From Okeania sp. SIO2B3 (lineage in GTDB: Bacteria; Cyanobacteriota; Cyanobacteriia; Cyanobacteriales; Microcoleaceae): DNA of 34,442 nucleotides. The DNA is taken from assembly GCF_010672525.1 (NCBI RefSeq), contig NZ_JAAHGH010000084.1, positions 1 to 34,442 on the forward strand, in the 5' to 3' direction. Both the position numbers and the translations under genes were made by a program. The notes below the pieces were generated by a model, which made no database searches, had not been told where the DNA came from, and was given only the letters and a program-made list of their open reading frames with translations. Of the stretch, positions 5,653-29,400 are shown one piece after another. The stretch's first letter is position 1. Each line of letters begins with the position of its first letter.

Positions 5653-5743
5653 AATTCAGAAGTTAGAAGTTCTTTTTGTCACCGGGATTTGAGCAAGTAT
5701 CCAAGTCAAATAACTTCCGTAAATTACTGTATAATTAAACCTT

Positions 5744-5891: not shown

Positions 5892-5899
5892 TAAAACTT

Positions 5900-6045
5900 T
5901 TATAGCTCTATAAAATCTGACTTTTAACTTTTGACTTTTATTTGTTTTTATTTGTAGTTCTATAAAATCTGACTTTTGACTTTTATTTGTAGTTCTATAA
6001 AAACTGACTTTTAACTTTTGACTTTTAACTTTTAACTTTTAACTT
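5900..6045. repeat. Tandem heptamer tract (TGACTTT/TAACTTT)
   Basis: Repeated units of the form TTTTAACTTTTGACTTTTA, including two 40-50 bp near copies of TAGTTCTATAAAATCTGACT. The tract runs up to the stop codon of the ATP-grasp gene. Similar ACTTTTA runs occur at 9958-9983 and 30020-30040. Slippage-type low-complexity DNA. Confidence 0.7.
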
Positions 6046-6961: not shown

Positions 6962-6986
6962 TTTTTTTCCTCGTTAAAAAAAGCGG

Positions 6987-7155
6987 TCATTTCAGTTATC
7001 AGTTATCAGTACCTCTAGCTGTTCCGGACTCAACAATTCTGTGCCATAGTGACAGAGGATTTTAACGTAGTAGGGGCGAATGGTATTCGCCCAATGCTGA
7101 TAGCTGTTTGCGCAGCATTCCGGTACGGAAATGCTAAAAGCTGATAGCTAATTAA
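6987..7155. repeat. Repeat family I copy 2 inserted between two operon genes
   Basis: Starts TCATTTCAGTTATCAG and ends AAAAGCTGATAGCTAATTA, so the outer ends are loosely inverted. Inside are a perfect hairpin GGGCGAAT-GGT-ATTCGCCC (7074-7092) and the J palindrome GCATTCCGGTACGGAAATGC (about 7114-7133). The element's end overlaps the stop codon (TAG on the minus strand, 7148-7150) of the degenerate ATP-grasp gene, and its other end stops about 15 bases short of the ribosome binding site of the ATP-grasp gene. Confidence 0.75.
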
Positions 7156-7840: not shown

Positions 7841-7851
7841 TCTACTCCTTT

Positions 7852-8628
7852 TTATCCGTTGTTAACAGCAGTTTCACCAACAGCAGGACGCTCTTCAGAA
7901 GATATGAAAGCTTCTTGCGTTGCTAGACGTTGTCCGATGTTATCGATACTTTGAGCCATTAAAGCTAGTGTTTGTTGTACTTCATTTCCTTGGTTAGCGG
8001 TAACTGTTTCGATATTTTCTTTGGGATTTTTTTCAGATTCTTTGGCTTCTTTGATTTCTTTTATTTCTGGTTTTACTTCTTTAACAGTTTTGTCAGATAC
8101 AAGAGATGGCAGCTGAAATAAACTACCTCCATTAGCAGTTGGTAGGGCATAAACTAATTGGTCAAAATCAGAAGCTTTAGGTGTGTTTTCACTGACAAAT
8201 GTTCCTCGGTGTTCGGGAGTTACTAAGACATTAATTTTCTGAAAAAGATTGCGCGCAAATATTTCTACAAATCCACGAATTTCGACCGTATCAACCCCTG
8301 GCTTGAGAGTAGTAATATCTGGTTGTAAAATAACTAAAGCTGTATCTTGGGCAGGTATTCCTACATCAAGACTAAATTTACGACGGTCTCGACTGCGAGT
8401 TAAATCCCCAAATATGTTATTTCCTCCAGCATCAATGACAGTAATAGTATCATCTACATTTAAGTTAGGTGTTGTAGCTGTAAATTGGACTTGAAGCCAC
8501 AAAATAGTGTTATTAGGATTAGCAATTGTTAAAAAGTAACCTTGGAGAACTTGACGGTCAGAATTAGGAATATTTCCTGCCTTAGGAGTGATAGGTTTTA
8601 AGAGTAGTTCAAATGTTGAAACTAGCAT
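7852..8628 (-). CDS. Hypothetical protein: beta-rich domain, charged linker, C-terminal helix
   Basis: A 258-aa protein of no family known to me. Residues about 1-150 look like a beta-sandwich: alternating hydrophobic strands, for example GYFLTIANPNNTILWLQVQF and VEIRGFVEIFA, and no signal peptide or membrane segment. Residues about 178-212 are a Lys/Glu linker with repeated VKEVKPEIKEIKEAKE. Residues 215-243 form a predicted amphipathic helix (VQQTLALMAQSIDNIGQRLA) and the last 15 are polar (EERPAVGETAVNNG). GAGGG lies just upstream of the ATG. First gene of the unit with the degenerate and intact ATP-grasp proteins, so it may be the substrate or a scaffold for the ligase. The acidic, exposed tail would suit modification, but that is inference. 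Confidence 0.78.
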   Translation of the reverse strand: MLVSTFELLLKPITPKAGNIPNSDRQVLQGYFLTIANPNNTILWLQVQFTATTPNLNVDDTITVIDAGGNNIFGDLTRSRDRRKFSLDVGIPAQDTALVILQPDITTLKPGVDTVEIRGFVEIFARNLFQKINVLVTPEHRGTFVSENTPKASDFDQLVYALPTANGGSLFQLPSLVSDKTVKEVKPEIKEIKEAKESEKNPKENIETVTANQGNEVQQTLALMAQSIDNIGQRLATQEAFISSEERPAVGETAVNNG

Positions 8629-11935: not shown

Positions 11936-12022
11936 AAAAAACTCCTTTCTAGCTACTGACAACTAATAACTGATATGACTCCTATGATATCATACCGTTG
12001 TTTAACAAAAGTTAATAAAAAT

Positions 12023-13531
12023 ATGGCCCGCGACTTAAGAGGATTCCTGAAAATTTTAGAAGACCGAGGACAATTATGCCGAATTAAAGCCTTAGTTGAC
12101 CCTGACCTAGAAATAGCAGAAATTTGTAACCGAATGTTGCAAAAGGGTGGCCCTGGTCTTCTGTTTGAAAATGTCAAAGGGTCTGACTACCCCATAGCAA
12201 TAAACTTGTTGGGTACAGAAGAAAGAGTATGCTGGGCAATGAATATGGAAAAACCCCAAGAATTGGAAACCTTGGGCAAAAAACTGGGGATGCTGCAACA
12301 ACCAAAACCACCAAAAAAGATTTCCCAAGCAGTAGAATTTGGCAAAGTTTTGTTTGATGTTGTCAAAGCAAAACCAGGGCGCGATTTTTTCCCTCCTTGT
12401 CAACAAGTTGTTGTTGAGGGAGACGCTCTCGACTTAAACCAAATTCCTATGATACGTCCCTATCCTGGAGATGCGGGTAAAATTATTACTCTCGGTTTGG
12501 TTATTACAAAAGATTGTGAAACAGGTACACCAAATGTAGGGGTATATCGGTTACAGTTACAGTCGCGTAATACTATGACGGTACATTGGTTATCCGTCCG
12601 TGGTGGGGCGCGACATTTGCGAAAAGCAGCAGAAAATGGGAAAAAGTTGGAAATTGCAATTGCTCTGGGAGTAGACCCATTAATTATTATGGCTGCTGCT
12701 ACTCCAATTCCGGTAGACTTGTCAGAATGGCTATTCGCAGGACTTTACGGTGGCTCCGGGGTGAAGTTAAATAAGTGTAAAACCTTAGATTTGGAAATAC
12801 CCGCAGATTCAGAATTTGTGCTTGAGGGTACAATTACTCCTGGGGAAATGTTACCAGACGGTCCCTTTGGCGACCACATGGGTTATTATGGTGGGTTGGA
12901 AGATTCTCCGGTGATTAAATTTCACTGTATGACTCACCGCAAAGACCCAATTTATTTGACCACTTTTAGTGGGAGACCGCCAAAAGAAGAAGCAATGATG
13001 GCGATCGCTCTTAACCGGATATATACTCCTATTCTCCGACAGCAAGTTTCAGAAATTGTTGATTTTTTCCTCCCTATGGAAGCTCTGAGTTACAAAGCTG
13101 CGGTAATTTCTATTAAGAAAGCTTATCCAGGTCAAGCACGAAGAGCAGCATTAGCTTTTTGGAGTGCTTTACCACAGTTTACTTATACAAAATTTGTAAT
13201 TGTGGTGGACGATAAGATTAATATTCGTGACCCTCGTCAAGTAGTCTGGGCAATTAGCTCTAAAGTCGATCCTTCTAGAGATGTGTTTATTTTGCCGAAT
13301 ACACCTTTTGATAGTTTAGATTTTGCTAGCGAGAAAATTGGTTTAGGTGGTCGTATGGGAATAGATGCTACTACAAAAATTCCTCCTGAAACTGACCATG
13401 AGTGGGGTGCTGCTTTGGAGTCTGATGCTGATGTTGCTGCAATGGTGGATAGACGTTGGGGTGAGTATGGGTTGGATGATTTGAATTTGGGGGAGGTCGA
13501 TCCGAATTTATTTGGATATGATATTCAGTGA
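12023..13531 (+). CDS. ubiD: UbiD-family decarboxylase (4-hydroxy-3-polyprenylbenzoate decarboxylase type)
   Basis: Prenylated-FMN-dependent decarboxylase; in cyanobacteria the member of this type is expected to act in plastoquinone synthesis. The 502-aa product shows the UbiD core: NVGVYRLQ (cofactor-binding region, Arg176), SEWLFAGLYGG, and GPFGDHMGYYGG near 280-291. In place of the E-G-P-x-G-E/D catalytic motif it has D-G-P-F-G-D (Asp279 and Asp284), which I recall as usual in the cyanobacterial clade. I chose the ATG at 12023 (MARDLRGFLKILEDRGQL) because homology starts there; the ATG at 11975 would add 16 unlikely residues. The ribosome binding site is weak at both. It stands alone between repeats. 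Its closeness to PAL, which makes cinnamate, could hint at Fdc1-like styrene formation, but the sequence type argues for quinone synthesis. Confidence 0.9.
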   Translation: MARDLRGFLKILEDRGQLCRIKALVDPDLEIAEICNRMLQKGGPGLLFENVKGSDYPIAINLLGTEERVCWAMNMEKPQELETLGKKLGMLQQPKPPKKISQAVEFGKVLFDVVKAKPGRDFFPPCQQVVVEGDALDLNQIPMIRPYPGDAGKIITLGLVITKDCETGTPNVGVYRLQLQSRNTMTVHWLSVRGGARHLRKAAENGKKLEIAIALGVDPLIIMAAATPIPVDLSEWLFAGLYGGSGVKLNKCKTLDLEIPADSEFVLEGTITPGEMLPDGPFGDHMGYYGGLEDSPVIKFHCMTHRKDPIYLTTFSGRPPKEEAMMAIALNRIYTPILRQQVSEIVDFFLPMEALSYKAAVISIKKAYPGQARRAALAFWSALPQFTYTKFVIVVDDKINIRDPRQVVWAISSKVDPSRDVFILPNTPFDSLDFASEKIGLGGRMGIDATTKIPPETDHEWGAALESDADVAAMVDRRWGEYGLDDLNLGEVDPNLFGYDIQ

Positions 13532-15596: not shown

Positions 15597-17393
15597 TTGA
15601 GAAATAAATTCCTGAACAACCAACCCCTTCAAAAGTCTGTAGCTAATAAAAGTTCTTCATCTCCCTACAATCAGAGTCTCAAACCCAAAATTGCACCTAG
15701 TATTGAGAACAATTTCTTCATCAGGAAATCCCAATCTGCTCAAACATCAAACCTAATAGTTGTTGGTGAAAACAATCTCACTCTCAGACAGGTAGCGAAG
15801 GTAGCAAAATTAGGATCGCCAGTTACACTCACAAAACGTCTAGATATTTGCCAAGGTATCCAAGACTCTTGCAACTATATTACCAACGCCGTAGAAACCG
15901 GAAAATCAATTTACGGAGTCACTACAGGATTTGGTGGCATGGGTAATACAGCTATTTCCTGTGAAGATGCTGCTGCTTTGCAAGAAAACCTAATTTGGTT
16001 TCTCAAGACGGGTGCAGGAAATCGACTCCCCATTGCTGATGTTCGTGCTGCTATGCTGTTGCGGATGAACTCTCATACAAAAGGTGCCTCTGGTATTCGC
16101 TATGAATTAATCGAACGTATGGCGATATTCCTCAATGAAGGAGTTACCCCTCATGTTTATGATTTAGGTTCCATTGGTGCTAGTGGGGATCTAGTCCCTC
16201 TGGCACATATTACTGGAGCATTACTAGGTTTAGATCCAGCGTTTACTGTAGATTTCAAAGGTACAGAAATCTCAGCTATTGAAGCTCTTAAGCGACTTAA
16301 ATTACCAACCTTGTCGTTGCGTGCTAAAGAAGGGTTGGCAATGGTTAATGGTACTTCTGTGATGACTGGAATAGCTGCTAATTGCGTAAATGATGCTCAT
16401 TCATTATTTGCTGTAGCTATTGCGACTCACGCATTAATGATACAAGCACTGGGTGGTACAAATCAGTCATTTCATCCATTTATCCATGGTTTGAAACCTC
16501 ACCCAGGTCAAGTTTGGGTAGCAGAGCAAATGGTGAATTTGCTGTCTGGTTCCCGTTTGAGTTGTGATGAGTTGAATGGTGATAATCACTTTGATGGTGG
16601 TGATTTGATTCAAGACCGTTATTCTATGCGCTGTTTACCGCAGTATTTGGGTCCAGTGGTAGATGGTTTGTGGGATATTGCTAGTCAGATAGAGACAGAA
16701 ATTAATTCTGTTACTGATAATCCCTTAATTGATGTGAAACGTCAAAGTAGCTATCACGGCGGTAATTTTCTGGGTCAATATGTGGGAGTCGGAATGGACA
16801 GATTGCGTTATTTGATTGGGTTAACTGCTAAACATCTAGATGTTCAAATTGCTCTGTTAGTTACTCCTGAATTTAATGGTGGATTACCTGCTTCTTTGGT
16901 GGGGAATACTCAACGAAAAGTGAATATGGGATTGAAGGGTTTGCAAATTGCTGGCAATTCAATTATGCCGTTGTTGACTTTTTATGGGAATTCTCTGACT
17001 GACCGTTTTCCTACTCATGCGGAACAGTTTAATCAGAATATTAATAGTCAAGGATTTGGTTCTGCTAATTTGGCACGGACTTCTATTAATTTATTCCGAC
17101 AATATTTAGCGATCGCTTTGATTTTTGCTGTCCAAGCAGTGGAGCAAAAAAATTATGTGCTTTTTGGTAATTATGATGTTGAAAAAAACTTGTCACCTGC
17201 AACTAAATTGTTGTACAATATAGTCAGAAAACTGTTAGGAAAACCTGTATCAAAAGAACAGTCTTTGATATGGGATGATTATGAACAAAGTTTAGACATT
17301 TATATTTCACGAATTGCAGATGATTTGAGTGCGCCTGGTCAGATTAGTCAAGCTGTTTCTAATATTTTTTCTGAGTTAATGAATGAAAAATAA
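15597..17393 (+). CDS. Phenylalanine ammonia-lyase (MIO enzyme)
   Basis: Removes ammonia from L-phenylalanine to give trans-cinnamate. The 598-aa product aligns along its length with the Anabaena and Nostoc PALs as I remember them. Seen: Tyr106 in YGVTTGFGG; the MIO triad Ala195-Ser196-Gly197 in GSIGASGDLVPL; Asn251 in MVNGTSVMTG; QDRYSMRC (339-346); and FPTHAEQFNQNINSQG near the end. Residues Phe135-Leu136 (NLIWFLKTG) replace the His-Leu of tyrosine lyases and His of histidases, which points to Phe. The start is TTG with GAGGAG upstream; the first in-frame ATG is residue 115, inside the catalytic core, so TTG is needed. The N terminus is about 28 residues longer than AvPAL and low in complexity. 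First gene of the PAL/ligase/KAS III/SDR group. Confidence 0.93.
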   Translation: MRNKFLNNQPLQKSVANKSSSSPYNQSLKPKIAPSIENNFFIRKSQSAQTSNLIVVGENNLTLRQVAKVAKLGSPVTLTKRLDICQGIQDSCNYITNAVETGKSIYGVTTGFGGMGNTAISCEDAAALQENLIWFLKTGAGNRLPIADVRAAMLLRMNSHTKGASGIRYELIERMAIFLNEGVTPHVYDLGSIGASGDLVPLAHITGALLGLDPAFTVDFKGTEISAIEALKRLKLPTLSLRAKEGLAMVNGTSVMTGIAANCVNDAHSLFAVAIATHALMIQALGGTNQSFHPFIHGLKPHPGQVWVAEQMVNLLSGSRLSCDELNGDNHFDGGDLIQDRYSMRCLPQYLGPVVDGLWDIASQIETEINSVTDNPLIDVKRQSSYHGGNFLGQYVGVGMDRLRYLIGLTAKHLDVQIALLVTPEFNGGLPASLVGNTQRKVNMGLKGLQIAGNSIMPLLTFYGNSLTDRFPTHAEQFNQNINSQGFGSANLARTSINLFRQYLAIALIFAVQAVEQKNYVLFGNYDVEKNLSPATKLLYNIVRKLLGKPVSKEQSLIWDDYEQSLDIYISRIADDLSAPGQISQAVSNIFSELMNEK

Positions 17394-17399
17394 TTGTAA

Positions 17400-17464
17400 G
17401 CATTTCCTGCGGACTGCTGCGCAAACAGCTATTAGCATTTCCTACGGAATGCTCCGCAAACAGC
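17400..17464. repeat. Tandem pair of family J palindromic modules
   Basis: Two 30-base units, GCATTTCCTGCGGACTGCTG and GCATTTCCTACGGAATGCTC, each followed by CGCAAACAGC (17400-17429 and 17435-17464). The same module occurs alone at about 2679, 7108, 9138, 30247 and 30340, usually inside other repeats. Each has a GCATTCC/GGAATGC-type dyad. Confidence 0.75.
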
Positions 17465-17692
17465 CATCAGATGCATGAACATATTCAAGCAATAACTGAG
17501 GTTAGGTTATAGCCAATTTAATTAATGAATTTTAATTCTCCTTGCTGGATAATTCCCCTCTAGCATGATAATGAGTTAATAACAAATAGCTGATAGCTGA
17601 TAGCTGACTGCTGAATGCTTACAAATAATTAGAATACTCTTCGTTTTTCGTTTTTTTTAAATTATGAGTAAAGTTTAGGGTCTATAGCAGAA

Positions 17693-17774
17693 GGAAGAAG
17701 GAAGAAGGAAAAATCTAGCGTTGTCTGAGTTTTGAGCTTTTAATTCTGTCCTAACTTTTACTTCGACTGCTATA
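17693..17774. repeat. Family G, copy 2
   Basis: An 82-bp element with ends TATAGCAG and CTGCTATA, and AAGGAAGAAGGAAGAAGG slippage next to the left end. Compare 11858-11935. Confidence 0.65.
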
Positions 17775-17811
17775 CAATATTACCTCCTATATCTTTACTC
17801 ATAATTAGGGC

Positions 17812-18072
17812 TTGCTGATTAAATCTAAAAGTATTTACAGATAAAGGTTTTAGCTTTTTTAAGTATCAAAAAGTGCGAGGTTTTAGGTGGTAATGGTTCA
17901 ATTAGGAGCGGGTTTTGGTCAAGAGTTGAGCATAAAAATCTAGGGACAATTCTTACTACTACCTCCTCTATAATTCCCATTTATCCTGACTCGGTCTTCC
18001 CCTGCTGGGAGGTGCTAGGGGTGGGTTTACTCCTCCCCTTACCACAAGACTTTGTTCAGCAAAACCTAATTA
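17812..18072. repeat. Dispersed repeat family F, copy 3
   Basis: Ends TAATTAGGGCTTGCTGATTA and TTCAGCAAAACCTAATTA. The interior includes AGATAAAGGTTTTAGCTTTT, as in copy 2, and a G-rich block ending AGGGGTGGGTTTA. About 261 bp. Confidence 0.75.
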
Positions 18073-18240
18073 GGATTACTTTGAATATTTACGATTTCCT
18101 AGAAACAACACAGATAAAAAAATCGGATGTATTTCGGTTTATTTCCTACTCCCCCACTTCTTCATTTTGATTGGTTAAGCCAGAAAAAATAAGGATATTT
18201 CGATGAAATTTAAAATTTTTTTTCCAGATTTTTGTTGTAG

Positions 18241-18393
18241 ATGGTTGTGTTTTTTTTTAAGACTAATTTCTCCAAAAAACTACAATTTTGGCTAGAAACA
18301 ATCGAGCATTGCCAATTTTTTTTTCAACTAGATGCTAGTGATTGGCAACAAATATGTAAAATCATATCTCCGGCTGATTTTATTGCCAAATAA
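18241..18393 (+). CDS. Possible 50-aa small protein or gene remnant
   Basis: An ATG-started frame of 50 codons with protein-like composition: after MVVFFFKTNFSKK come LQFWLETIEHCQFF and LDASDWQQICKIIS, amphipathic and containing three aromatic clusters. There is no ribosome binding site. It is the only part of this gap that is neither repeat nor low-complexity. It could be a decayed remnant of a longer gene between PAL and the ligase, or a real short protein. Family unknown. Confidence 0.3.
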   Translation: MVVFFFKTNFSKKLQFWLETIEHCQFFFQLDASDWQQICKIISPADFIAK

Positions 18394-18472
18394 ACTACTG
18401 ATTTTGAAATTAAAAATTACGATTTTTGCCAAAGAGTTAGATTGGTTTTTGATACATTAATCCAATGTATCA

Positions 18473-18685
18473 TACCATTTTGAAAAAAGAATTTTACGCA
18501 TAATAAGCGTGATTAAAATACTTTAAAGGAGATGTCTTTTTGACATAAAAGAGAATTTCCTAGATCAAAACTGGTATTGAAGCAATTCCCATACGACTCC
18601 TGACTCCCCTCCTGGGAGGGGCGGGGGTGGGTTTACTCCTAAGAAATATCCTAGCTATTTGTAGCAAAAATTTATCAATTTGGTA
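18473..18685. repeat. Family E, copy at 18473 (inverted)
   Basis: Ends TACCATTTTGAAAAAAGAAT and TTATCAATTTGGTA. It contains GCATAATAAGCGTGATTAAA near the left, a G-rich module (18614-18631), then ATCCTAGCTATTTGTAGC near the right end. The right end lies only 55 bases before the ligase start, so it supplies or displaces the ligase promoter. Confidence 0.75.
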
Positions 18686-18739
18686 TCAAACTACTTTCTA
18701 CACCATGGAAAAACAAATATTTGGGGTGAAAAAATCACA

Positions 18740-20230
18740 ATGAATATTACACAACATATTGAAAGAGGTGCTCAATTTTTTCCTCACAAAACAGCTTTAA
18801 TTTTTGAAGAAAAAGTTTTTACTTATGGGGAACTAAATGAGTTAGCAAATCGTGTAACTAATGGTTTGCGGTATTTGGGAATAAAATGTGGCGATCGCGT
18901 AGCTTTGTTTTTGCCAAATATTCCTGAATTTGTCATTACTTATTTGGCAATTATCAAACGTGGTGCTGTGGTTGTTTCTGTTAATTCAATGCTGAAAAGT
19001 GAAGAAGTTCGCTTCATCCTCAATGATAGTGAAGCAGTAGCAGTTGTGACAACAGAATCTTTAAGGGAGCAAATACCCGATCGGGATCTAGCTTTTCTGA
19101 GGAATGTTTTAATTACTCAGGGTGAAACAGATAGAGATATCAGTTTATCTACTCTGATGGAAAAAGGGAGTGCTGATTTCAAGACTGTTTCCATGGAACC
19201 GACTGCCCCTGCTGCTATTGTTTACACTTCTGGCACCACTGGTTTTCCTAAAGGAGCAACCCTGTCTCATGGGAATATCTGTTCTAATATGCACTCCGTT
19301 AAGCATTGTTGTCAGATCGACTCTGATGATAAATTGTTGCTTTTTTTACCCCTTTCCCACTGTTTCGGTCAGAATTTTATTCTCAATGGTGGGTTAAACG
19401 CTTGCGCAACAATTATTTTACAGCGACGGTTTAGGCCAGAAGATGTATTGAAAGCTATTCATAGTCATAGCGTGACCATGTTGTTTGGAGTTCCGACTGT
19501 GTTTTTACGCTTGCTGGAGACTGGTGTGTCGCCGTCAGATTTTAACTCGGTGCGCTATTATTTTAGTGCTGCTGCTAAAATATCTGTAGACCTTGTATGT
19601 CAGTGGCAAGAATTTTGTGGTAAATTGATATATGAGGGTTATGGATTAACAGAAACTTCTCCTTTTGCTTGTTACAATCACGATTTGAGATATAAATTGG
19701 GTTCCATTGGAATGCCAATTGAGAACGTAGAAATGAAAGTTGTGAATGAAGCTGGCGACGAGCTTGAATGTGGGGAAGTTGGAGAGCTGTTAATACGCGG
19801 TCCGAATGTCATGCTAGGATATTGGAATCGTACAACAGAAACACAGAAAGTCTTGGATAATGGCTGGTTTCATACAGGCGATCTAGGCAGTATGGATCAG
19901 GATGGCTATTTCTATATTGTTGACCGCTTGAAGGATATGATTAATGTTTCTGGGTTCAAAGTGTATCCTTCTGAAGTGGAAAAAGTAATTCTGGAACATC
20001 CTGCTGTGCTTGAGGCAGCGGTATATGGTATGAGCGATCGCCTCAAAGGGGAAATTGTTAATGCTAATATTGTTCTCAAACCTAGTAAATTTGTTTCTGC
20101 TGAGGAAATAAAAAGTTTTTGTGCTCAGAGAATAGCAAATTATAAAGTACCTCATACATTTCACTTTGTTGATTATATTCCCAAAAATGCTACAGGGAAA
20201 GTTCTCAAGCGTGTTTTGCAGCAGACTTAG
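18740..20230 (+). CDS. AMP-forming acyl/aryl-CoA ligase (4CL/fatty-acyl-CoA synthetase type)
   Basis: ANL-superfamily enzyme that activates a carboxylic acid as acyl-AMP and transfers it to CoA (or a carrier thiol). The 496-aa product has all core motifs: P-loop VYTSGTTGFPKGA (161-173), YGLTETSP (301-308), GWFHTGDLG (375-383), the hinge DRLKDMINVSGFKVYPSEVE (395-414), and the C-terminal PKNATGKVLK with catalytic Lys487. I chose ATG 18740 since MNITQHIERGAQFFPHKTAL is the usual family opening; the upstream TTG at 18680 lies in repeat E. With PAL upstream, trans-cinnamate is a plausible substrate, giving cinnamoyl-CoA, but a fatty acid cannot be excluded from motifs alone. Together with the KAS III-like and SDR genes it forms a pathway group on one strand. 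Confidence 0.88.
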   Translation: MNITQHIERGAQFFPHKTALIFEEKVFTYGELNELANRVTNGLRYLGIKCGDRVALFLPNIPEFVITYLAIIKRGAVVVSVNSMLKSEEVRFILNDSEAVAVVTTESLREQIPDRDLAFLRNVLITQGETDRDISLSTLMEKGSADFKTVSMEPTAPAAIVYTSGTTGFPKGATLSHGNICSNMHSVKHCCQIDSDDKLLLFLPLSHCFGQNFILNGGLNACATIILQRRFRPEDVLKAIHSHSVTMLFGVPTVFLRLLETGVSPSDFNSVRYYFSAAAKISVDLVCQWQEFCGKLIYEGYGLTETSPFACYNHDLRYKLGSIGMPIENVEMKVVNEAGDELECGEVGELLIRGPNVMLGYWNRTTETQKVLDNGWFHTGDLGSMDQDGYFYIVDRLKDMINVSGFKVYPSEVEKVILEHPAVLEAAVYGMSDRLKGEIVNANIVLKPSKFVSAEEIKSFCAQRIANYKVPHTFHFVDYIPKNATGKVLKRVLQQT

Positions 20231-20256
20231 CGAAGCAGAAGAAAGGTCAAGCTTTT

Positions 20257-20284
20257 GTTGGGTTGCGCTCCCGCTTAACCCAAC
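20257..20284. repeat. Hairpin repeat between ligase and KAS III genes
   Basis: GTTGGGTT (20257-20264) and AACCCAAC (20277-20284) around GCGCTCCCGCTT. This short palindrome is widely scattered in cyanobacterial genomes (from memory). There is no T-run, so a terminator role is not supported. Confidence 0.6.
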
Positions 20285-20388
20285 CTACATATTGCATTAC
20301 TGCCTAAGTTTTGACAAAAATGACTGTTTTCATCTCAACAAATAGTTAAATTCGGCTTTTTTTGTAAATAAATTAGGAATAAATAACA

Positions 20389-21513
20389 ATGAATCAATCT
20401 GTTGGTATCCGAGCACTTGCAGTTAATTTTCCAGAATATGTATTAACAAATAATTACTGGAAAAAGAACTATCCAGATTTGTTGCTTAAACTCGAACAAA
20501 AAAATAAAACTGTACGACTGTTCGACAACGACTCACAACAAAATGATCATTGGGTGCAAGCTGTTCAACCTTATCGAGAAGATATTTTTCGAGGTACTTT
20601 AGAAAGAAGAGTTTTAACTGGAGATGAAACTTCTATGACTCTTGAATGTGGAGCAATAGAAAAGGTTTTACAAGCTGCAAAACTAGATATTAACGAAGTT
20701 GACTTGCTGATTTCTTGTGCAATGTTTCCAGAAAGATTAGCCATTGGCAATGCCACTTTAATTGCTCGAGAATTAGGATTTCGAGGTACAGCTTGGAATT
20801 TGAATGCTACCTGTGGAGGCGCTTTGTTAGCATTAGAAAACGCTGTTTCTGTTATCCAAAGCCAGAAAATAGACCGGATTTTAGTGTCTGTATCATGCGA
20901 TTATTCTAAGCATATAGAGTATACAAATCCATTTTCTTTTACTCTTGGAGATGGAGCTGCAGCTTTTATTGTGGAAAAAGTTCAAACAGGAGAAGGATTA
21001 CTTCATTCTTATTCAACGAATACCCATGAATCTTGTGATGTAGTTTATCCAAAATTTACTGTAGATGAAAAAGGAGAAATAAAATTATTAATTGCCATTG
21101 ATAAAGAAACTGTCAAATATGCCACTTCTTTATTTATTAAATATTTCCAAGAATGCTCTAGAAAAGTATTAGATAAATCAGGAATCAAAGTGGAAGATAT
21201 AGATTTCTTTGTACTTTATCCACCTACTGCCGGGTACATTGACTTTTGTGCTTCAGAATTGAATATTCCTAAACACAAAACTATTGATATCTTTCCTCAG
21301 TATGGAAATATTTCTGTTACTTCAGTAATGGCTGCTTTATATCATACAGCTGAACAGAGGAAAATTAAAAAAGGTGATTTGGTGATGACCTATGCTCATG
21401 GTTTTTCAGGGGCTGCAGCTGCTCATATTATGCGTTGGGGTGATGTAGTTTTAGGATCTGTTCCTACACCATCAGAAAGTTTGATGAAGCTTACTACAAA
21501 AGTTGGAATTTAA
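20389..21513 (+). CDS. KAS III-like (thiolase-fold) protein with altered catalytic triad
   Basis: A 374-aa member of the 3-oxoacyl-ACP synthase III/FabH-like family, which condenses or transfers acyl-thioesters. Nucleophile Cys142 lies in NLNATCGGALLALE. By eye, the FabH VPHQANxRI motif corresponds to VLYPPTAGYI (275-284), so the catalytic His is Tyr277. The Asn is kept (Asn307 in QYGNISV). The glycine-rich end YAHGFSGAAAAHIMRW (335-350) is typical. C-Y-N instead of C-H-N would weaken decarboxylative condensation and could mean acyl transfer, thiolase-like cleavage or another reaction. The N terminus has an unusual Lys/Asp-rich insertion (about 24-65). TTAGGA lies 11-16 bases before the ATG. 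It lies between the ligase and two SDRs on the same strand. Confidence 0.85.
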   Translation: MNQSVGIRALAVNFPEYVLTNNYWKKNYPDLLLKLEQKNKTVRLFDNDSQQNDHWVQAVQPYREDIFRGTLERRVLTGDETSMTLECGAIEKVLQAAKLDINEVDLLISCAMFPERLAIGNATLIARELGFRGTAWNLNATCGGALLALENAVSVIQSQKIDRILVSVSCDYSKHIEYTNPFSFTLGDGAAAFIVEKVQTGEGLLHSYSTNTHESCDVVYPKFTVDEKGEIKLLIAIDKETVKYATSLFIKYFQECSRKVLDKSGIKVEDIDFFVLYPPTAGYIDFCASELNIPKHKTIDIFPQYGNISVTSVMAALYHTAEQRKIKKGDLVMTYAHGFSGAAAAHIMRWGDVVLGSVPTPSESLMKLTTKVGI

Positions 21514-21521
21514 TTTCTTTT

Positions 21522-21570
21522 GAGAGTGAAGTTTTTGTTAAATTGTCATCCTGTGAGTTACTTCACTCTC
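21522..21570. promoter_or_regulatory. Long-loop inverted repeat between KAS III and SDR genes
   Basis: Perfect 11-bp arms GAGAGTGAAGT (21522-21532) and ACTTCACTCTC (21560-21570) with 27 bases between; a second possible pairing is TTAAATT with AATTTAA just downstream. No T-run, so it could be an operator, an mRNA processing stem or a decayed repeat rather than a terminator. Confidence 0.35.
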
Positions 21571-21644
21571 TGAGAGAATTTAACCAATTATTTTCAACAT
21601 TCCCAGATAAGTTTTATTGACAAAAATCAAAGGAGTATTTAAAG

Positions 21645-22406
21645 ATGCCATTTTCACAAGAATTTGATGGAAAAGTTGCTTTAGTTACAGGAGGTTCATC
21701 TGGTATAGGTAGGGCAGCAGCTCTTGCTTTTGCTCAAGCTGGAGCCAAGGTTGTCATTGCCAGTAGAGGTGTTGAAGAAGGAGAGCAAGCAGCACACGAA
21801 ATTTGTGCTAGAGGTAGTGATGCCATTTTTGTGAAGACTGATGTTTCTCAGGCTAACGAAGTAGAGGCATTAGTGAACAAAACTGTAGATATTTATGGCC
21901 GTTTAGACTGTGCATTCAACAATGCTGGTGTTACCAAAATGTGTTCATTAATTGATTCAGGAGAAGAAGATTGGGACTATATTGTTAACATTAATCTTAA
22001 AGGAGTATGGTTGTTGATGAAGTATGAGATAGCACAAATGCTCAAACAAGGCAGTGGTGCAATTGTAAATACGTCCTCGGTTGCGGGTACGATCGGCGTA
22101 GTCAATTTTTCTGTTTACTCAGCAAGTAAAAGTGGGGTTATAGGTATGACTAAGGCTGCAGCAGTTGAGTATGCAAAATTAGGCATCCGTATCAATGCTG
22201 TTAGCCCTGGTATTATTCAAAGTCCAATACTTGAGACATTTTCTACCAAGCAACTCAATCAGTTTTTAGAAGAGCATCCTCATCCTATAGGTCGTTTCGG
22301 TACTCCTGAAGAGGTGGGAGAAGCCGCAATGTGGCTATGTTCCGAGGGTGCTTCTTTCATGACAGGACATAACCTGATTATTGATGGAGGATATACTGCT
22401 CAATAA
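21645..22406 (+). CDS. Short-chain dehydrogenase/reductase, first of a tandem pair
   Basis: A 253-aa classical SDR with a Rossmann fold. Cofactor motif TGGSSGIG (15-22), NNAG (92-95), Asn117 in VNINLKG, Ser145, Tyr158 and Lys162 of the catalytic tetrad (YSASK). The C-terminal GGYTAQ is shared with the next gene. The end of beta-strand 2 is SRG, with no Asp, so NADP(H) is likely. The substrate is unknown; in this setting a 3-keto or 3-hydroxy acyl thioester or an aryl ketone is possible. AAAGGAG precedes the ATG with good spacing. Closely similar to the following SDR, which arose by tandem duplication. Confidence 0.9.
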   Translation: MPFSQEFDGKVALVTGGSSGIGRAAALAFAQAGAKVVIASRGVEEGEQAAHEICARGSDAIFVKTDVSQANEVEALVNKTVDIYGRLDCAFNNAGVTKMCSLIDSGEEDWDYIVNINLKGVWLLMKYEIAQMLKQGSGAIVNTSSVAGTIGVVNFSVYSASKSGVIGMTKAAAVEYAKLGIRINAVSPGIIQSPILETFSTKQLNQFLEEHPHPIGRFGTPEEVGEAAMWLCSEGASFMTGHNLIIDGGYTAQ

Positions 22407-22580
22407 ATTAGTATTATATCATCTTCGGATAATAGTTGTGAGCGGATTGAGTAATAAGTAGTTAGATCGAATTAATTTCATAAGTTTTGGAACCATTGAA
22501 AAAGTGTGCAAATTACTATCCGTTAGCAATCTTCATAGATTTCCAGATTTATTTACTGAAGTGAAAGGAGTATTTTAAAA

Positions 22581-23342
22581 ATGTCATTCTCAAAAGAATT
22601 TGACGGAAAAGTTGCATTGATTACAGGTGGTACATCAGGCATAGGAAAGGCAACAGCTCTTGCTTTTGCTCAGGCTGGAGCCAAGGTCGTCATCGCTGGC
22701 AGAAGAGTTACTGAAGGAGAACAAGTAGTACAAGAAATTTGTGCCAGAGGTGGTGATGCCATTTTTGTCAAAACTGATGTTTCTGTAACTAGTGAAGTGG
22801 AAGCACTAATTAATAAAACAGTTGAATTTTACGGTCGGCTCGACTGCGCCTTTAATAATGTGGGTAATGGGTTAAACCGTCCGCTAACCGAGCATACAGA
22901 AGATGATTGGGATTATATAATCAACGCAAATCTAAAAGGTATGTGGCTTTCTCTCAAATATGAACTTCCGATAATGCTCGAACAAGGAAGTGGTTCAATT
23001 GTTAATATGTCATCTGTTGGTGGCGTTGTAACTATCATGCCTGGTATGTCTGTGTATTCTGCAGCTAAAGCAGGAATTATTGGTTTAACTAGAGCAGCAG
23101 CAATTGAATATGCTAAATCTAATATCCGAATTAATACAATTAGTCCGGGTGCTGTAAAAACTCTAGCTTTGGAAAATAATTTTACCCCTGACCAACTTAC
23201 TTTTATCAACGGGTTGCATCCCTTGGGGCGAATCGGGAAACCGATGGAAGTTGCTGAAGCAGTAATTTGGTTATGCTCTGAACGCACTTCCTTCGTTACA
23301 GGACATAATCTGATCATTGATGGAGGATACACTGCTCAATAA
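22581..23342 (+). CDS. Short-chain dehydrogenase/reductase, second of the pair
   Basis: A 253-aa paralogue of the preceding SDR, well over half identical by eye, with the same N-terminal pattern (F-EFDGKVAL) and identical end FVTGHNLIIDGGYTAQ versus FMTGHNLIIDGGYTAQ. Cofactor loop TGGTSGIG (15-22), Tyr159 and Lys163 (YSAAK), Asn117. The family's NNAG is NNVG (92-95), and the loop after it and the substrate loop (SPGAVKTLALENNF) differ from copy 1, which suggests a different substrate. GRR after beta-strand 2 favours NADP(H). The ribosome binding site AAAGGAGTATT is the same as in copy 1, so the duplication included the leader. Last gene of the group; convergent with the kinase gene. Confidence 0.9.
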   Translation: MSFSKEFDGKVALITGGTSGIGKATALAFAQAGAKVVIAGRRVTEGEQVVQEICARGGDAIFVKTDVSVTSEVEALINKTVEFYGRLDCAFNNVGNGLNRPLTEHTEDDWDYIINANLKGMWLSLKYELPIMLEQGSGSIVNMSSVGGVVTIMPGMSVYSAAKAGIIGLTRAAAIEYAKSNIRINTISPGAVKTLALENNFTPDQLTFINGLHPLGRIGKPMEVAEAVIWLCSERTSFVTGHNLIIDGGYTAQ

Positions 23343-23970: not shown

Positions 23971-26900
23971 TCATCCATCAATAGGAATTTCTATAATAAA
24001 TTCCGTGCCTTGTCCCGGTTGAGAAATACACTTCAACTGTCCTCCATGTTGCTGAGTAACGATTTGGTAACTAATAAATAACCCCAGTCCGGTTCCTTTG
24101 CCGATCGCTTTAGTGGTGAAGAAGGGGTCAAATATCCGTTGACAAACGCTATCGCTCATTCCCATCCCATTGTCAGCAATGAGAATCCTTGCTGTTTGAG
24201 CATCCTGCAGCTCCGTGGTAATCCGAATTTCGGAGTAGCGCCCAATCTCCGAAGTTGTTAAAGCATCGATCGCGTTGCTGAGAATCTGTAGGAATACTTG
24301 ATTTAGTTGACTGGCCCAACAGTTTACTCGAGGTAATTTTCCGTAGTTTTTGACTATGGTAATTTCTGGGCAGGAGCGATTAGCATTGAGCCGATGTTGC
24401 AAAATCATTAAAGTATTCTCTAATCCTTCGTGGATATCTACATCCTTCATATCTGATTCATCAAGGCGAGAGAAGTTCCGCAAACCCAAAATAATTTTAC
24501 TAATGCGATTGCTCCCTGTTTGCATGGAATCTAACAATTTTTCTAAGTCGTCACACAAAAACTCTAGCTCAAGCTCTTCTAATTTCTCTTCTATGACTGA
24601 ATTAGAACCGGAATAGTTTTGTTTGTAAAGATCGAGTATCTCAAGTAAGTCGTGGAAATATTTGCGAGCATAAGTGATATTACTAGAGATAAACGTAATA
24701 GGGTTATTAATTTCGTGGGCAATTCCTCCTACCATTTGTCCCAAAGCAGACATTTTTTCCGTTTGGATCAATTGAGTTTGAGTTTGTTGCAATTTAAGCA
24801 GGGTTTGCTGTAAGTCTTGGTTTTTCTCCTGAAGTGCTTGAGTTCTGTGTTTGACTTGGGCTTCCAGATTGGAGTTATATTCTTCTAGATTCTGGTAAAG
24901 TCTGGCGTTTTCAATGGATATCGCAGCTTGAGTCATAAGTAGATGAAGGACTTTTATGCGGTCTGGAGTAAATGCTCCTGTAGCGAGGCTGTTTTCTAGG
25001 AGCAGGAGAGCAAGAAATTTGCCTTGCTTGACGATCGGAGTACACAAGAGGCTTTTTGGCTGGTGTTCTAGCAGGTATGGATCTCCAGCGAAGGTAGTTT
25101 CTGTTTCAAGCTCATTGATGAGTACGGTTTGTTGAGTCTGTTTGACAGTGTTGATCACAGTATGGGGTAAATCGGTAGTCTGGTCGAGAGATGTGATGCA
25201 TGAATTATAGTCGCCACTCAGGCATTGAATAGGAATTTCCCAATTACCAGAGTTATTTAAAACTAAAGTTCCTTTGTTCGCTCCAGCATTTTCCATGAGA
25301 ATGTGCATCAATTTATCAAGTAAGCTATTTAGTTCGATTTCCTCTGAGATAGTTTGGGAGGCTTTAATAATAGTAAAAAAGTCGAGATTTTTGCTAGTTT
25401 TGCTAGTGATTGAGGATATAGTTTTTGTGATGTCAATTTTTGTAATTTCTGGTGTTTGGCTGCGAATAATTAGGTTGGGGTGGTGTTCTTCTAAGTCTTT
25501 GATTTTGGCAGTCGCACCCCAATTAATATAGCAGTAATAGGCTTCCGTCATGTAGGCTTTGGCTACTTTTTCTCTGCCAAGAGACAGATAAAATTCTGCC
25601 GCTCGTTCGTTGGCGATCGCTTCTTCATGGATGTAACCGTTTTCTGAGGCTCCAGAAATTGCTTTTTCGTAGTAGGTTGCTGCTATTTCATTTTCACCTA
25701 AAACTCTGGCTGTTTCTGCTTCTACTAGATCGTATTTGTGTTGGAAGTTCATGGGGGCGTGCTTTGCCCAAATTTTCATTTGTTTTTGGTTAGACTTGAC
25801 TTTTTTGAGGTATTGTTTTTGTTCTTTTGGGGAGATGTTGGGGTAATTTGCGAGTAGTGCAAGGGAATAGTAGAAGTTGTATTGAGCAAAGTAAATTGTA
25901 CCTTTCATAGTATTTTGATACTTTTCGGCAAATTGAGCAATTTTAGTTGCTTGTACAATGTCTTGAAATATATAACAAATCATCAATTTCATGAGATTGA
26001 TTATTAAGATTCCCGCCTGATTATTAGCTTTGATGAAACCCTCTGTATAATCTTCATCAAGCTTATTACAAATACCTGATTCTCGCTCCTTTAAATCGCT
26101 CAAAATATATTTTACACAATCATTCCATGCACTAGCAAAACGTATATAATAATCTTTTTTACTGCTAATAATTATAGTTAGATAGTCTTTTTGAATACTC
26201 GCGATTTCTTCTAAGTTTTTACCTCTAAATAATATATTTGAACAATAAGTTATAGCACATTCACAAGCATACTGAATATCTCCATTCACAAATCCATCTT
26301 GAAAACCTTCTATTAAGTCTAATTCTGTTTCTTTTATATGTTTTTTCCAAATTTTAACAAATACATTAAACAGCATATAAACTTTGGCTTTATATTCTCT
26401 TGCATTATATTTATTTAATAATTCTATAGATAAAACTCCGAATTTATATCCGGTCTCAAAATCTCCTATGGCCGAACATAAAATAATGCTATAACTTCCA
26501 AATCCATAAGCAGATAGAGGTGAATTTCCATGTTTTAAACATAGAGACACCATTCTAAATATTAGTAATGGGAACAGGTTAGGATTAACTCCAAAAGCAA
26601 CAGGAATAGCAGAAATTGTTATTTTTATCGCTGCTAACTTGTAGGGGTCATTCATTACTGGCAAATTAGCCAAATCATCGACCGAGTAACGACTCAGAGA
26701 AAATTTTATGTATAAATATTCTTTAATTATCGTTAATTTACTAATTTTTTTTGGGAAGGTAAGTTTAAATTTTTTCAATACCTTCAAAGAGGTATCAAGC
26801 GCTTGTTGACTTTGGTTTTGAGAGGTATGAAATTCTATTAATAATTCATAAACTTTGACTTGCTCAAGTAATTTTGTAGTTCTGGCAAATATAAATTCTG

Positions 26901-29400
26901 ACAATTGTTGCGCCCGTTCAAAATTAGTGTTGAGATATTCAGCTTCTAGTGTTTCTACATAGAGTTCTCTTGTCAATTCATAATGACTCTCCCAACTATT
27001 TGTAGGTAACAACTCTAACCCCACATTTAAATATCTACCTGCCGCTTCATAAGCTGTAGCTCCCTTGGCTTTTTTTCCTGCCCATAAATTTAATTTTAGC
27101 AACCCTTCTTTTAACTCTATTTCTGTGATTAAATCACGCCCTATATTCAACTGATTTACAATATCAAATATGTTCTCTTCTATTTGCTCAGAAGGCAGAC
27201 TTTTCCACAATGACTTACCGATTTTTAGATGGATTTTTTTTCGATTTTCCTCAGGAATAAGTGAATATGCTGCTTGCTGCACTCTGTCATGCAAAAAACG
27301 ATAACTTACCCTAGATTCATCAAATAATAACTCCCCAGAGTTGTCGTTTTCGGAAAATAATAAGGGAATTTTATAATCCTGAGAGAGTGGTAATATTAAA
27401 CCTGTTTGTAAAGCACTCCATAAATCTTGTGCTGTCTGAGTCGCAGATTTTTCGTTAACAACTGCTAATACATCTAAACTAAATTTATTACCAATACAAG
27501 CCGCTAGTTTTAAAACTTTTTGGGTAGTTGTTGATAGTTTCCCAATATTCCTAGCAACTAATTCTACTACTCCTAAATCTGCTATTCCAAAACTTTGAAT
27601 CTGCTCAATATCCCACATCCAACATCCAACTGTAAAATCAAATGTTAATAATTTGTCTGTATACAATGTTTTGAGGAGTTGAGTTAAGAAAAACGGATTA
27701 CCTTGAGTTTTACTGTATAGTAGGTCTGATAATTGAGTGACCCGCTCATTAGTGGTAGTAGCTTCTTCTGATAATGTTTCTGCTACTAATTGTCTGATGT
27801 AATTGATTTTTAGAGGTTCTAATATGATTTGATTAACTGTTGTGCTAGTTTTTTGGATTTTTTCTATGGTTTGGATGGTCGGATGTACTGGGTTAACTTC
27901 GTTGTCTCGATAAGCTCCGATAAATAATAAGTGTTGGGTTTCGCTGTCCGTCATTAACTGTTCTATCAGGTTTAATGATGCTAGATCTGCCCACTGTAAG
28001 TCATCGAGAAATAAAACTAATGGATGTTCTGGTTGAGCAAAGACACGGACAAATTTTCCGAATAGTTGATTGAAACGGTTTTGTGATTCAGTGGCTCCTA
28101 ACTGGGCTACTTTTCCTTGTTTACCGATGATTAATTCTAATTCTGGGATGACATCAATGATGATTTGACTATTTTCTCCTAATGCAGTTAATAGTTTCTG
28201 CTTCCATTCGCTAACTTTTAGTGTAGTTTCTGCAAGTAACTGGCGGATTAGCTGTTGAAAAGCTTGGCTGATAGCAGCATAAGGAATATCCCGTTTGAAT
28301 TGATCGAATTTGCCACCAATGAAATAGCCTCTGGCTTTAACTATGGGTTTATGTACTTCGTTAACAACTTTGGTTTTACCGATACCGGAATAACCTGTAA
28401 CTAGAATAAGTTCTTTATTGCATTGACTGATGTTATCATCATCCGTATTACTGACGCGACCAAAAGCTTCTAAGAGGAGACGGACTTCTGTTTTCCTACC
28501 ATAGAGCTTTTGGGGGATACTAAATTGACCTTTTTTGTCCTTTTTCCCTGGAGTAAAAGCTTGAATTCTGTTAATGGTTTCTAGTTTACTCAAGCAATAT
28601 TCAAAGTCTGCTTTTAATCCGAGGGCGCTTTGATAGCGGTCTTCAGCATTTTTTGATAGCAGTTTCATCACTATTAAGGATATAGCAATGGGAATTTCTG
28701 GGTTAATTTGGTGTGGGGAGATAGGGGTTTTAGCTATGTGTGAGTGGATGATTTCCATTGGGTCATTGCTATAGAAGGGAAGCTGTTTAGTAAGAATTTG
28801 ATAGAAAGTGACACCCAAGGAATAGAAGTCACTGCGATAGTCTATATTGCGGTTCATGCGTCCAGTTTGTTCTGGAGATATATAAGCTAGAGTGCCTTCT
28901 ATATAATTTGGGTTGATGATGGTCTGAGTTTCTGTTTCTAGACGGGTGGCAATGCTGAAGTCTATGATTTTTGTTTTTTGTGTGGTAGGATGGATCAGGA
29001 TGTTGTGGGGCTTAATATCTTTGTGGATGATTTGTTGTTGATGTATTTTATCTAGGGTGTCACTAAGTTGGAAGGCTATGTTGAGAAATTGGGAAATTGC
29101 GATCGATGAGTCTGTTATATGTTGTTTGAGAGATACGGAATTGAAGTATTCGAGGATCAGGATGAGGCGATATTCCTGGTGGATCAGGTCTATGGATTTG
29201 ACAACTCCTTCAACGTTGAGGTTTTTGAGGATATTGTATTCATGTCTAATGCGCGCAATTTCTTCTGGAGCAGGGTATTCAGAGATTTGCGTCTTGAGGA
29301 CAACTAGAGTATGATCGGACTGGCGTAATGCCCTATATATTATACTGTTGCTGCCTTGGTATAAGGTTTGTAAATTTGAATAGCCAGGAGTATTTAACAT
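23971..29400 (-). CDS. HstK-like Ser/Thr kinase-AAA ATPase-GAF-histidine kinase
   Basis: An 1809-aa multidomain signalling protein of the type described in Anabaena as HstK. Order: Ser/Thr kinase about 7-270 (Lys36 in VVLK, HKDIKPHN with Asp128, IDFS with Asp147, SPEQTGRMNR). Then an AAA-type predicted ATPase about 290-560 (Walker A GYSGIGKT with Lys342, Walker B LVLFLDDLQWAD near 463). A long helical, TPR-like part follows at about 700-1320, then GAF about 1342-1485 and coiled coil about 1495-1550. The histidine kinase has an H-box LGQMVGGIAHEINNP with His1562, N-box near 1708, DNGMGM near 1745 and FDPFFTTK...GTGLGL. No membrane segments. All key residues are present in both kinases. No response regulator is adjacent. 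The start ATG has no clear Shine-Dalgarno element. Confidence 0.92.
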   Translation of the reverse strand: MLNTPGYSNLQTLYQGSNSIIYRALRQSDHTLVVLKTQISEYPAPEEIARIRHEYNILKNLNVEGVVKSIDLIHQEYRLILILEYFNSVSLKQHITDSSIAISQFLNIAFQLSDTLDKIHQQQIIHKDIKPHNILIHPTTQKTKIIDFSIATRLETETQTIINPNYIEGTLAYISPEQTGRMNRNIDYRSDFYSLGVTFYQILTKQLPFYSNDPMEIIHSHIAKTPISPHQINPEIPIAISLIVMKLLSKNAEDRYQSALGLKADFEYCLSKLETINRIQAFTPGKKDKKGQFSIPQKLYGRKTEVRLLLEAFGRVSNTDDDNISQCNKELILVTGYSGIGKTKVVNEVHKPIVKARGYFIGGKFDQFKRDIPYAAISQAFQQLIRQLLAETTLKVSEWKQKLLTALGENSQIIIDVIPELELIIGKQGKVAQLGATESQNRFNQLFGKFVRVFAQPEHPLVLFLDDLQWADLASLNLIEQLMTDSETQHLLFIGAYRDNEVNPVHPTIQTIEKIQKTSTTVNQIILEPLKINYIRQLVAETLSEEATTTNERVTQLSDLLYSKTQGNPFFLTQLLKTLYTDKLLTFDFTVGCWMWDIEQIQSFGIADLGVVELVARNIGKLSTTTQKVLKLAACIGNKFSLDVLAVVNEKSATQTAQDLWSALQTGLILPLSQDYKIPLLFSENDNSGELLFDESRVSYRFLHDRVQQAAYSLIPEENRKKIHLKIGKSLWKSLPSEQIEENIFDIVNQLNIGRDLITEIELKEGLLKLNLWAGKKAKGATAYEAAGRYLNVGLELLPTNSWESHYELTRELYVETLEAEYLNTNFERAQQLSEFIFARTTKLLEQVKVYELLIEFHTSQNQSQQALDTSLKVLKKFKLTFPKKISKLTIIKEYLYIKFSLSRYSVDDLANLPVMNDPYKLAAIKITISAIPVAFGVNPNLFPLLIFRMVSLCLKHGNSPLSAYGFGSYSIILCSAIGDFETGYKFGVLSIELLNKYNAREYKAKVYMLFNVFVKIWKKHIKETELDLIEGFQDGFVNGDIQYACECAITYCSNILFRGKNLEEIASIQKDYLTIIISSKKDYYIRFASAWNDCVKYILSDLKERESGICNKLDEDYTEGFIKANNQAGILIINLMKLMICYIFQDIVQATKIAQFAEKYQNTMKGTIYFAQYNFYYSLALLANYPNISPKEQKQYLKKVKSNQKQMKIWAKHAPMNFQHKYDLVEAETARVLGENEIAATYYEKAISGASENGYIHEEAIANERAAEFYLSLGREKVAKAYMTEAYYCYINWGATAKIKDLEEHHPNLIIRSQTPEITKIDITKTISSITSKTSKNLDFFTIIKASQTISEEIELNSLLDKLMHILMENAGANKGTLVLNNSGNWEIPIQCLSGDYNSCITSLDQTTDLPHTVINTVKQTQQTVLINELETETTFAGDPYLLEHQPKSLLCTPIVKQGKFLALLLLENSLATGAFTPDRIKVLHLLMTQAAISIENARLYQNLEEYNSNLEAQVKHRTQALQEKNQDLQQTLLKLQQTQTQLIQTEKMSALGQMVGGIAHEINNPITFISSNITYARKYFHDLLEILDLYKQNYSGSNSVIEEKLEELELEFLCDDLEKLLDSMQTGSNRISKIILGLRNFSRLDESDMKDVDIHEGLENTLMILQHRLNANRSCPEITIVKNYGKLPRVNCWASQLNQVFLQILSNAIDALTTSEIGRYSEIRITTELQDAQTARILIADNGMGMSDSVCQRIFDPFFTTKAIGKGTGLGLFISYQIVTQQHGGQLKCISQPGQGTEFIIEIPIDG

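Follow-up and report, generated by a model that had tools for sequence, protein, structure and literature searches.

A probable furanolide-kind gene cluster of Okeania sp. SIO2B3 without a CybE-type gene and with a ketoacyl synthase exchanged between lineages

The stretch studied here (positions 1 to 34,442 of contig NZ_JAAHGH010000084.1 from Okeania sp. SIO2B3, 34,442 nucleotides, hereafter the window) comes from a genome of 10.0 Mb in 249 contigs that is listed as 99.85% complete, and carries in series an ammonia-lyase, an acid-CoA ligase and a member of the ketoacyl-acyl carrier protein synthase III (KAS III) family, followed by two short-chain dehydrogenases/reductases (SDRs) and a very large kinase. 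Judged from its sequence, this cluster is a variant, without a CybE-type gene, of the furanolide kind represented by the cyanobacterin (cyb), nostoclide (ncl) and maculalactone (mac) clusters. It is filed in this way, and not as a furanolide cluster, because homologues of CybB, CybC and CybF are present and a homologue of CybE was not found in the genome. The furanolide kind itself is already known; new here are the CybE-less locus, its predicted preference for phenylalanine and a natural exchange of the KAS. The genes concerned are the following, with domain families of the 4-methylideneimidazole-5-one (MIO) lyases and of the acyl-CoA synthetase, nonribosomal peptide synthetase (NRPS) adenylation and luciferase (ANL) superfamily among them.

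15597..17393, forward strand: MIO ammonia-lyase, predicted phenylalanine ammonia-lyase (PAL), in the CybB-type position (PF00221, 464 bits)
18203..18393, forward strand: copy of a small gene between lyase and ligase (tblastn E 7e-4, 36 amino acids, aa)
18680..20230, forward strand: ANL acid-CoA ligase in the CybC-type position (PF00501, 327 bits; C-terminal domain PF13193, 75 bits)
20389..21513, forward strand: KAS III-like, CybF-type enzyme (ACP_syn_III 48.7 and ACP_syn_III_C 64.3 bits, both above the cut-off)
21645..22406, forward strand: SDR1, NADP(H)-type by sequence, optional member (adh_short_C2, 227 bits)
22581..23342, forward strand: SDR2, tandem copy of SDR1 (65% identical), optional member (adh_short_C2, 224 bits)
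23971..29400, reverse strand: Ser/Thr kinase-AAA-GAF-histidine kinase of 1809 aa, likely regulator (Pfam; orthologues in relatives)

All five enzyme frames announced by the initial annotation are open on one strand, and their Pfam families agree with it. The lyase holds the MIO triad Ala-Ser-Gly from residue 195 onwards and, as had been claimed, the selectivity residues Phe135-Leu136 of a predicted Phe-type enzyme; in a PDB sequence search its best chain was 2nyn (792 bits), which we take to be the Anabaena variabilis lyase, and its fourth was 2nyf, the PAL of Nostoc punctiforme (783 bits). The ligase displays YTSGTTGFPKG, YGLTETSP, GWFHTGDLG and PKNATGKVLK, has the feruloyl-CoA synthetase 8wev as best PDB chain (273 bits), and more likely starts at ATG 18740, giving 496 aa, because all three other annotated Okeania ligases have this length. 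As a prediction, the proposed route from PAL and ligase to cinnamoyl-CoA is supported, and both SDRs carry TGGxSGIG, an Arg after the second strand and YSA(S/A)K, in line with their assignment to the NADP(H) type.

Relatives were surveyed at two levels, namely 61 genomes of the family (lyase at E <=1e-50) and 388 genomes of the class (lyase at E <=1e-100); G and L numbers denote genomes and loci. Within the family, the lyase was found in 12 of 61 genomes, the KAS in 12 and both in 11 (Fisher p 3.4e-10, a value that ignores kinship), and in all 11 genomes with both, the genes lie on one contig with the ligase between lyase and KAS. In G416, the lyase sits on two contigs of 3.3 kb, both ending next to it and without a KAS, and G421 has KAS and kinase, without lyase, on a contig that ends beside the KAS. 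Co-occurrence in relatives had been set beforehand as the refuting test, and the cluster survives it in these 61 genomes. The lyase-ligase-KAS part of the proposed cluster of five stands, with its order kept; the SDRs do not stand as constant members, being absent or deleted in several relatives. In the class, the lyase occurs in 7 of 388 genomes, with a CybF-like KAS adjoining it in four (G000, G339, G116 and G365) and none within the 19-kb stretches around the lyase of G037, G350 and G162. The KAS itself has a match at E <=1e-39 in 24 of the 388 genomes, beyond which scores drop to FabH level (<=93 bits). Note that other lyase contexts exist in the class: the lyase of G350 (L102) lies near a peroxiredoxin and an acyl-CoA dehydrogenase-like protein of 406 aa, and that of G162 (L103) near a 406-aa frame and a pyridoxal phosphate enzyme, and both carry a Phe-His pair.

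The identity of the cluster emerges from comparison with loci that also contain a thiamine diphosphate (ThDP) enzyme. L073 (G116) holds a 3-deoxy-D-arabino-heptulosonate 7-phosphate (DAHP) synthase, lyase, ligase, ThDP enzyme, KAS, chorismate mutase, tyrosinase and Coq4-like protein, that is, most of the gene set reported for mac, and amounts to a complete furanolide-type locus; L060 (G439) consists of lyase, ligase, ThDP enzyme, KAS, Rieske oxygenase and SDR, and G365 has lyase, ligase, ThDP enzyme and KAS on one short contig, with lyase and KAS cut. The window shares the order lyase-ligase-KAS with L073 and L060, but differs in that there the ThDP gene lies between ligase and KAS and the lyase pair is Tyr-His (G116) or His-Leu (G439) instead of Phe-Leu. 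Compared through L073 and not with the Cyb proteins themselves, the window lyase is 66% identical to the lyase in the same, CybB-type position, the ligase 62% identical to its CybC-type counterpart, and the KAS falls in the same His-less, CybF-like family, as a deep subfamily of its own. As three furanolide core enzymes out of four have homologues in the cluster, the initial statement that it matches no known pathway has to be given up.

In the published passages on these systems, CybB yields 4-coumarate, CybC its CoA ester and CybE an acyloin-type acid from two keto acids, and CybF joins both by O-acylation, a Morita-Baylis-Hillman reaction and a hydride shift (PMC13288894, PMC12395478, PMC8777810). 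The same excerpts give CybE-type products as alpha-hydroxy-beta-keto acids, and CybF as the first enzyme described to catalyse a Morita-Baylis-Hillman reaction (PMC8777810). For maculalactone, they list four core genes, a DAHP synthase, a chorismate mutase, a tyrosinase and four less clear genes (PMC13288894), and the mac enzymes are said to prefer cinnamoyl-CoA at the alpha position. The window resembles cyb, ncl and mac in that a single cluster combines an ammonia-lyase, a CoA ligase and a CybF-like KAS. In contrast, neither its cluster nor its genome yielded a CybE-type ThDP gene, and the window proteins scanned include no member of the DAHP synthase, chorismate mutase, tyrosinase or halogenase families; its KAS is deeply diverged, and SDRs and a giant kinase adjoin. 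Searches of open PMC text, judged for the most part by their listings, showed no report of this CybE-less cluster; two listed papers, PMC12914315 and PMC12481558, contain both furanolide and Okeania, and neither PMC13288894 nor PMC12395478 mentions Okeania or Microcoleus.

Each half of the furanolide core is also found without the other, since there are ThDP-less lyase-ligase-KAS loci as well as genomes with a KAS beside a ThDP gene and no lyase at E 1e-100 (G283, G375, G381 and G252, family f6 within the window's order). A KAS beside a ScyA/CybE-like ThDP gene is seen in L072, L074, L075 and L100, from genomes without a matching lyase, an arrangement like the cybE/cybF pair reported from Plesiocystis (PMC8777810).

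Other known systems are further away. The isopropylstilbene enzymes StlA/B/D and the dialkylresorcinol enzyme DarB combine PAL, ligase and a KAS III-type enzyme acting on cinnamoyl units, a set that the window shares, but its KAS reaches 24 bits on the StlD/DarB NCBIfam model, far below the cut-off of 450. Enterocin biosynthesis (EncP/EncH) likewise starts from PAL and acid-CoA ligase, and differs in its polyketide synthase, of which no module was seen among the window proteins scanned.

The KAS was rightly called odd at the outset. It is a remote KAS III by PDB sequence search (best chain 94 bits), and retains Cys142 and Asn307 of the Cys-His-Asn triad by which FabH works, with Tyr277 where FabH has its catalytic His. 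Among 41 aligned rows (the window, 35 other CybF-like and 5 FabH sequences), HQAN is present in 5/5 FabH rows, and the His is absent from 35/35 CybF-like rows with data, all of which keep Cys and Asn. The TAW/TPW motif has its Trp in 30 of 35 CybF-like rows, and a Gly in the window group (Gly282 in the window), which comprises the window, G426, G427, G418 and G394. In the KAS tree (39 rows), these five stand together (support 100/100) on a long stem, among the CybF-like rows and away from FabH. A scan of named genomes returned two Okeania sp. loci from metagenome-assembled genomes, probably those of G426 and G427, with a KAS 79-80% identical to that of the window. An AlphaFold2 model from a 3-row alignment gave a mean pLDDT of 41 and no usable fold. 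As a side observation, a second CybF-like branch with rows above 500 aa from several families (L070, L105, L106 and L109), for which no established name turned up, lies beside a chorismate-binding enzyme; L070, the one checked by Pfam, has a carrier domain in its KAS, and in L070, L105 and L106 there are, besides, an ANL ligase and large proteins with ANL domains, which Pfam identifies as NRPS in L070.

Our results further demonstrate that the KAS has been exchanged between lineages on a constant lyase-ligase feeder. Within one genus, the window and G425 share 91.0% identity in the lyase and 91.5% in the ligase, but 39.6% in the KAS, and G339 and G394 behave alike (95.2%, 96.2% and 44.2%, respectively). 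At the ligase/KAS junction, nucleotide identity drops from 94% to 58% in the latter pair; in the former it falls from 91% to at most 60%, with 72% in the bin that spans the junction. Between the window and G418, the KAS is 70% identical, above the lyase (67%) and the ligase (65%). Approximately unbiased (AU) tests on 12 loci agree: KAS data reject the four Okeania as a clade (p 3.6e-56), and lyase plus ligase data reject the window KAS group as a clade (p 1.6e-42).

The selectivity pair of the lyase appears to follow the KAS. Phe-Leu is found in eight of the 12 loci compared (window, G426, G427, G418, G394, G339, G412 and G393), and the other four have Tyr-His (G425, G419 and G116) or His-Leu (G439); Tyr-His also occurs in the lyases of G416 and of G037, the latter without KAS nearby. 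As a clade, the Phe-Leu set is rejected by lyase plus ligase data (p 1.4e-5) but not by KAS data (p 0.447). The eight Phe-Leu lyases are set apart at seven columns from the Tyr-His lyases of G425, G419, G416 and G116; of these columns, 135 and 136 alone are invariant in each set. Among seven rows, the codons are TTT CTC (G000, G426, G427 and G339), TAT CAC (G425 and G419) or CAT CTG (G439), so that Phe-Leu and Tyr-His differ by two T/A changes. At E 1e-60, the genomes of the eight Phe-Leu loci yield no CybE-type gene; among the others, G116 and G439 have one, and G425 and G419 have none at this threshold. These residue patterns support, without proving, a coupling of the selectivity pair to the KAS type.

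Altogether, we consider it probable that the window holds a CybE-less cluster of the furanolide kind, in which phenylalanine would be converted to cinnamoyl-CoA and joined by a His-less, CybF-like KAS to an acceptor that CybE does not supply, the SDRs being optional. The lyase is predicted to deaminate L-Phe to trans-cinnamate, and the ligase to form cinnamoyl-CoA. The KAS would then load the cinnamoyl group on Cys142 and hand it to the acceptor, probably with formation of a C-C bond, as in CybF. The SDRs, where present, might reduce the product. In such a scheme, the KAS would decide the product, with the adjoining kinase as likely sensor. Since no CybE-type gene was found, an acyloin partner would have to come from acetolactate synthases, from other chemistry or from outside; one conjectural candidate is an acetolactate-type hydroxy-keto acid made by the cell's own acetolactate synthases. 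A more far-reaching reading, which we hold to be less likely than not, is a combinatorial locus, in which a fixed lyase-ligase feeder serves an exchangeable, His-less, C-C bond-forming KAS, two point changes retune the lyase between Tyr and Phe upon a KAS swap, and the Phe-type KAS subfamily works independently of an acyloin synthase towards an undescribed cinnamoyl-derived scaffold. If true, such a subfamily would show what else CybF-type chemistry accepts. Moreover, the feeder stays nearly the same where the KAS has been naturally exchanged, and the lyase pair differs to match; the window and G425, from one genus, thus make a pair of loci that lends itself to a direct test of this link.

Several observations weigh against this interpretation. 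No CybE-type match was found in the window's own genome at E 1e-60, and at E 1e-30 the ThDP matches are two, 27% identical and both acetolactate synthases. The KAS group has a stem of 1.17 changes per column and the window KAS is only 37% identical to that of the complete locus L073, so that its chemistry may have moved far. The lyase scores 391 on the NCBIfam model phe_am_lyase, below the cut-off of 519, and PMC3992019 notes that the first selectivity position of PAL sequences can be Phe or His. Among 25 NCBIfam models listed, the ligase passes only PRK06187 'long-chain-fatty-acid--CoA ligase' (478 bits, cut-off 476), a general model; CybC is likewise named a long-chain acyl-CoA synthetase in PMC12395478 and PMC8777810. 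The coupling between lyase and KAS rests on few events, because the minimum change count of the selectivity pair is 2 on both trees. Finally, Tyr-His is taken as tyrosine-type by analogy, the Streptomyces clavuligerus tyrosine lyase having a Tyr at the position equivalent to His89; on the other side, and in line with a Phe-type window lyase, His89Phe shifts the tyrosine ammonia-lyase of R. sphaeroides towards phenylalanine (PMC9002059, PMC8773403).

The searches for a ThDP enzyme bear on a special case of the CybE-less reading, namely a true furanolide pathway with its partner drawn from housekeeping acetolactate synthases, in which cinnamoyl-CoA and 2-acetolactate would give an alpha-benzyl, beta-methyl, gamma-methylidene butenolide (C13H12O2). 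Acetolactate is an alpha-hydroxy-beta-keto acid, the class to which CybE-type products belong; the KAS is in the CybF-like family, and two acetolactate synthases (1092 and 864 bits) are encoded in the genome, the two strong ones among five places found with PF02775, the other three being remote. However, ThDP matches of the same size and score are widespread in the genomes compared and are therefore nothing specific, and every natural furanolide known so far has an aromatic gamma-substituent, according to PMC12395478; we hold this special case to be rather unlikely. Note that on the ScyA model (cut-off 1020) the ThDP enzyme of L073 reaches 970 bits, against 1022 for a ScyA-related model (cut-off 1000), and that, used as a query for a scytonemin-type ScyA enzyme, it finds nothing like itself in the window's genome. 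Apart from L060, the other ten family loci have no ThDP gene in the stretch, as judged from frame lengths and matches, and none at E 1e-60 in their genomes.

Of about the same, low probability is plain acyl transfer, in which the KAS would cinnamoylate an alcohol or amine without forming a C-C bond. KAS III-fold acyltransferases exist, and a retained Cys with a lost His would suit one, but the CybF kin form C-C bonds, as described in passages of PMC13288894 and PMC12395478.

Ordinary KAS III elongation of cinnamoyl-CoA with malonyl-ACP, giving a 3-oxo-5-phenylpentenoyl chain to be reduced by the SDRs to an arylalkanoid, comes close to what was initially inferred, and draws on membership in the KAS III family and the FabG-like SDRs alongside. 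We consider it clearly unlikely. The decarboxylative condensation of KAS III relies on the His, which neither the window KAS nor any CybF-like relative with data possesses, so that the window enzyme is probably incapable of this reaction. The SDRs, in turn, vary: two stand in the window and one each in G425, G339, G412, G393 and G439; there is none at the cluster in G426, G419 and G421, nor in the 2 kb of contig held past the KAS in G418, and in G394 the SDR is internally deleted to a frame of 153 aa (L066 7044-7505). The G427 contig stops next to the KAS; an SDR match of 59% is found on a different contig.

This deletion, the missing CybE and the split small open reading frame in the window could also be seen as marks of a decaying furanolide cluster after loss of CybE. 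Such decay is very improbable, as lyase, ligase and KAS are full-length open frames in 11/11 loci, dN/dS (nonsynonymous to synonymous substitution rates) is <=0.35 in every lyase, ligase and KAS comparison giving a value (one lyase pair gave none), and 10 of the 11 family genomes lack any CybE match at E 1e-60. That the PAL is an unrelated neighbour, for which the 1.3-kb gap before the ligase had at first left room, is scarcely credible, with adjacency kept in 11/11 loci and the gap holding a small conserved gene in kin.

This small gene encodes 110 aa in six loci and frames of 72-88 aa in the three other Okeania, and is spread over two frames in the window; it gives a weak tblastn match at the same place in the four Okeania loci. 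The 110-aa protein has no Pfam match at E 0.1, and shows two stretches holding Trp-Gln-Gln (L063:8796-9128).

The kinase orthologue adjoins the KAS or SDR in nine of the 12 family loci holding the KAS; it was not seen in G439 or G418, and the G427 contig ends there. In a quick tree with some long branches, the nine cluster kinases form one clade apart from the six own-genome paralogues tested, of 19 other kinase matches at E 1e-100 in this genome, some only pieces. The adjoining kinase is likely a sensor or regulator of the cluster. A kinase next to the ThDP gene in G252 and G381 was considered as the same regulator and rejected, as the tree groups both with other paralogues.

Elsewhere in the window, Rfam at gathering scores gave no match, and no tRNA was found. 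An upstream UbiD (11975-13531) was considered as a cinnamate decarboxylase leading to styrene and set aside; it is likelier a housekeeping enzyme, because it is the sole PF01977 match in the genome and is 98-99% identical in three other Okeania loci. The region 4666-8628 on the reverse strand encodes two proteins without a Pfam match at E 0.001, a DUF1350 protein and a RimK-like ATP-grasp protein.

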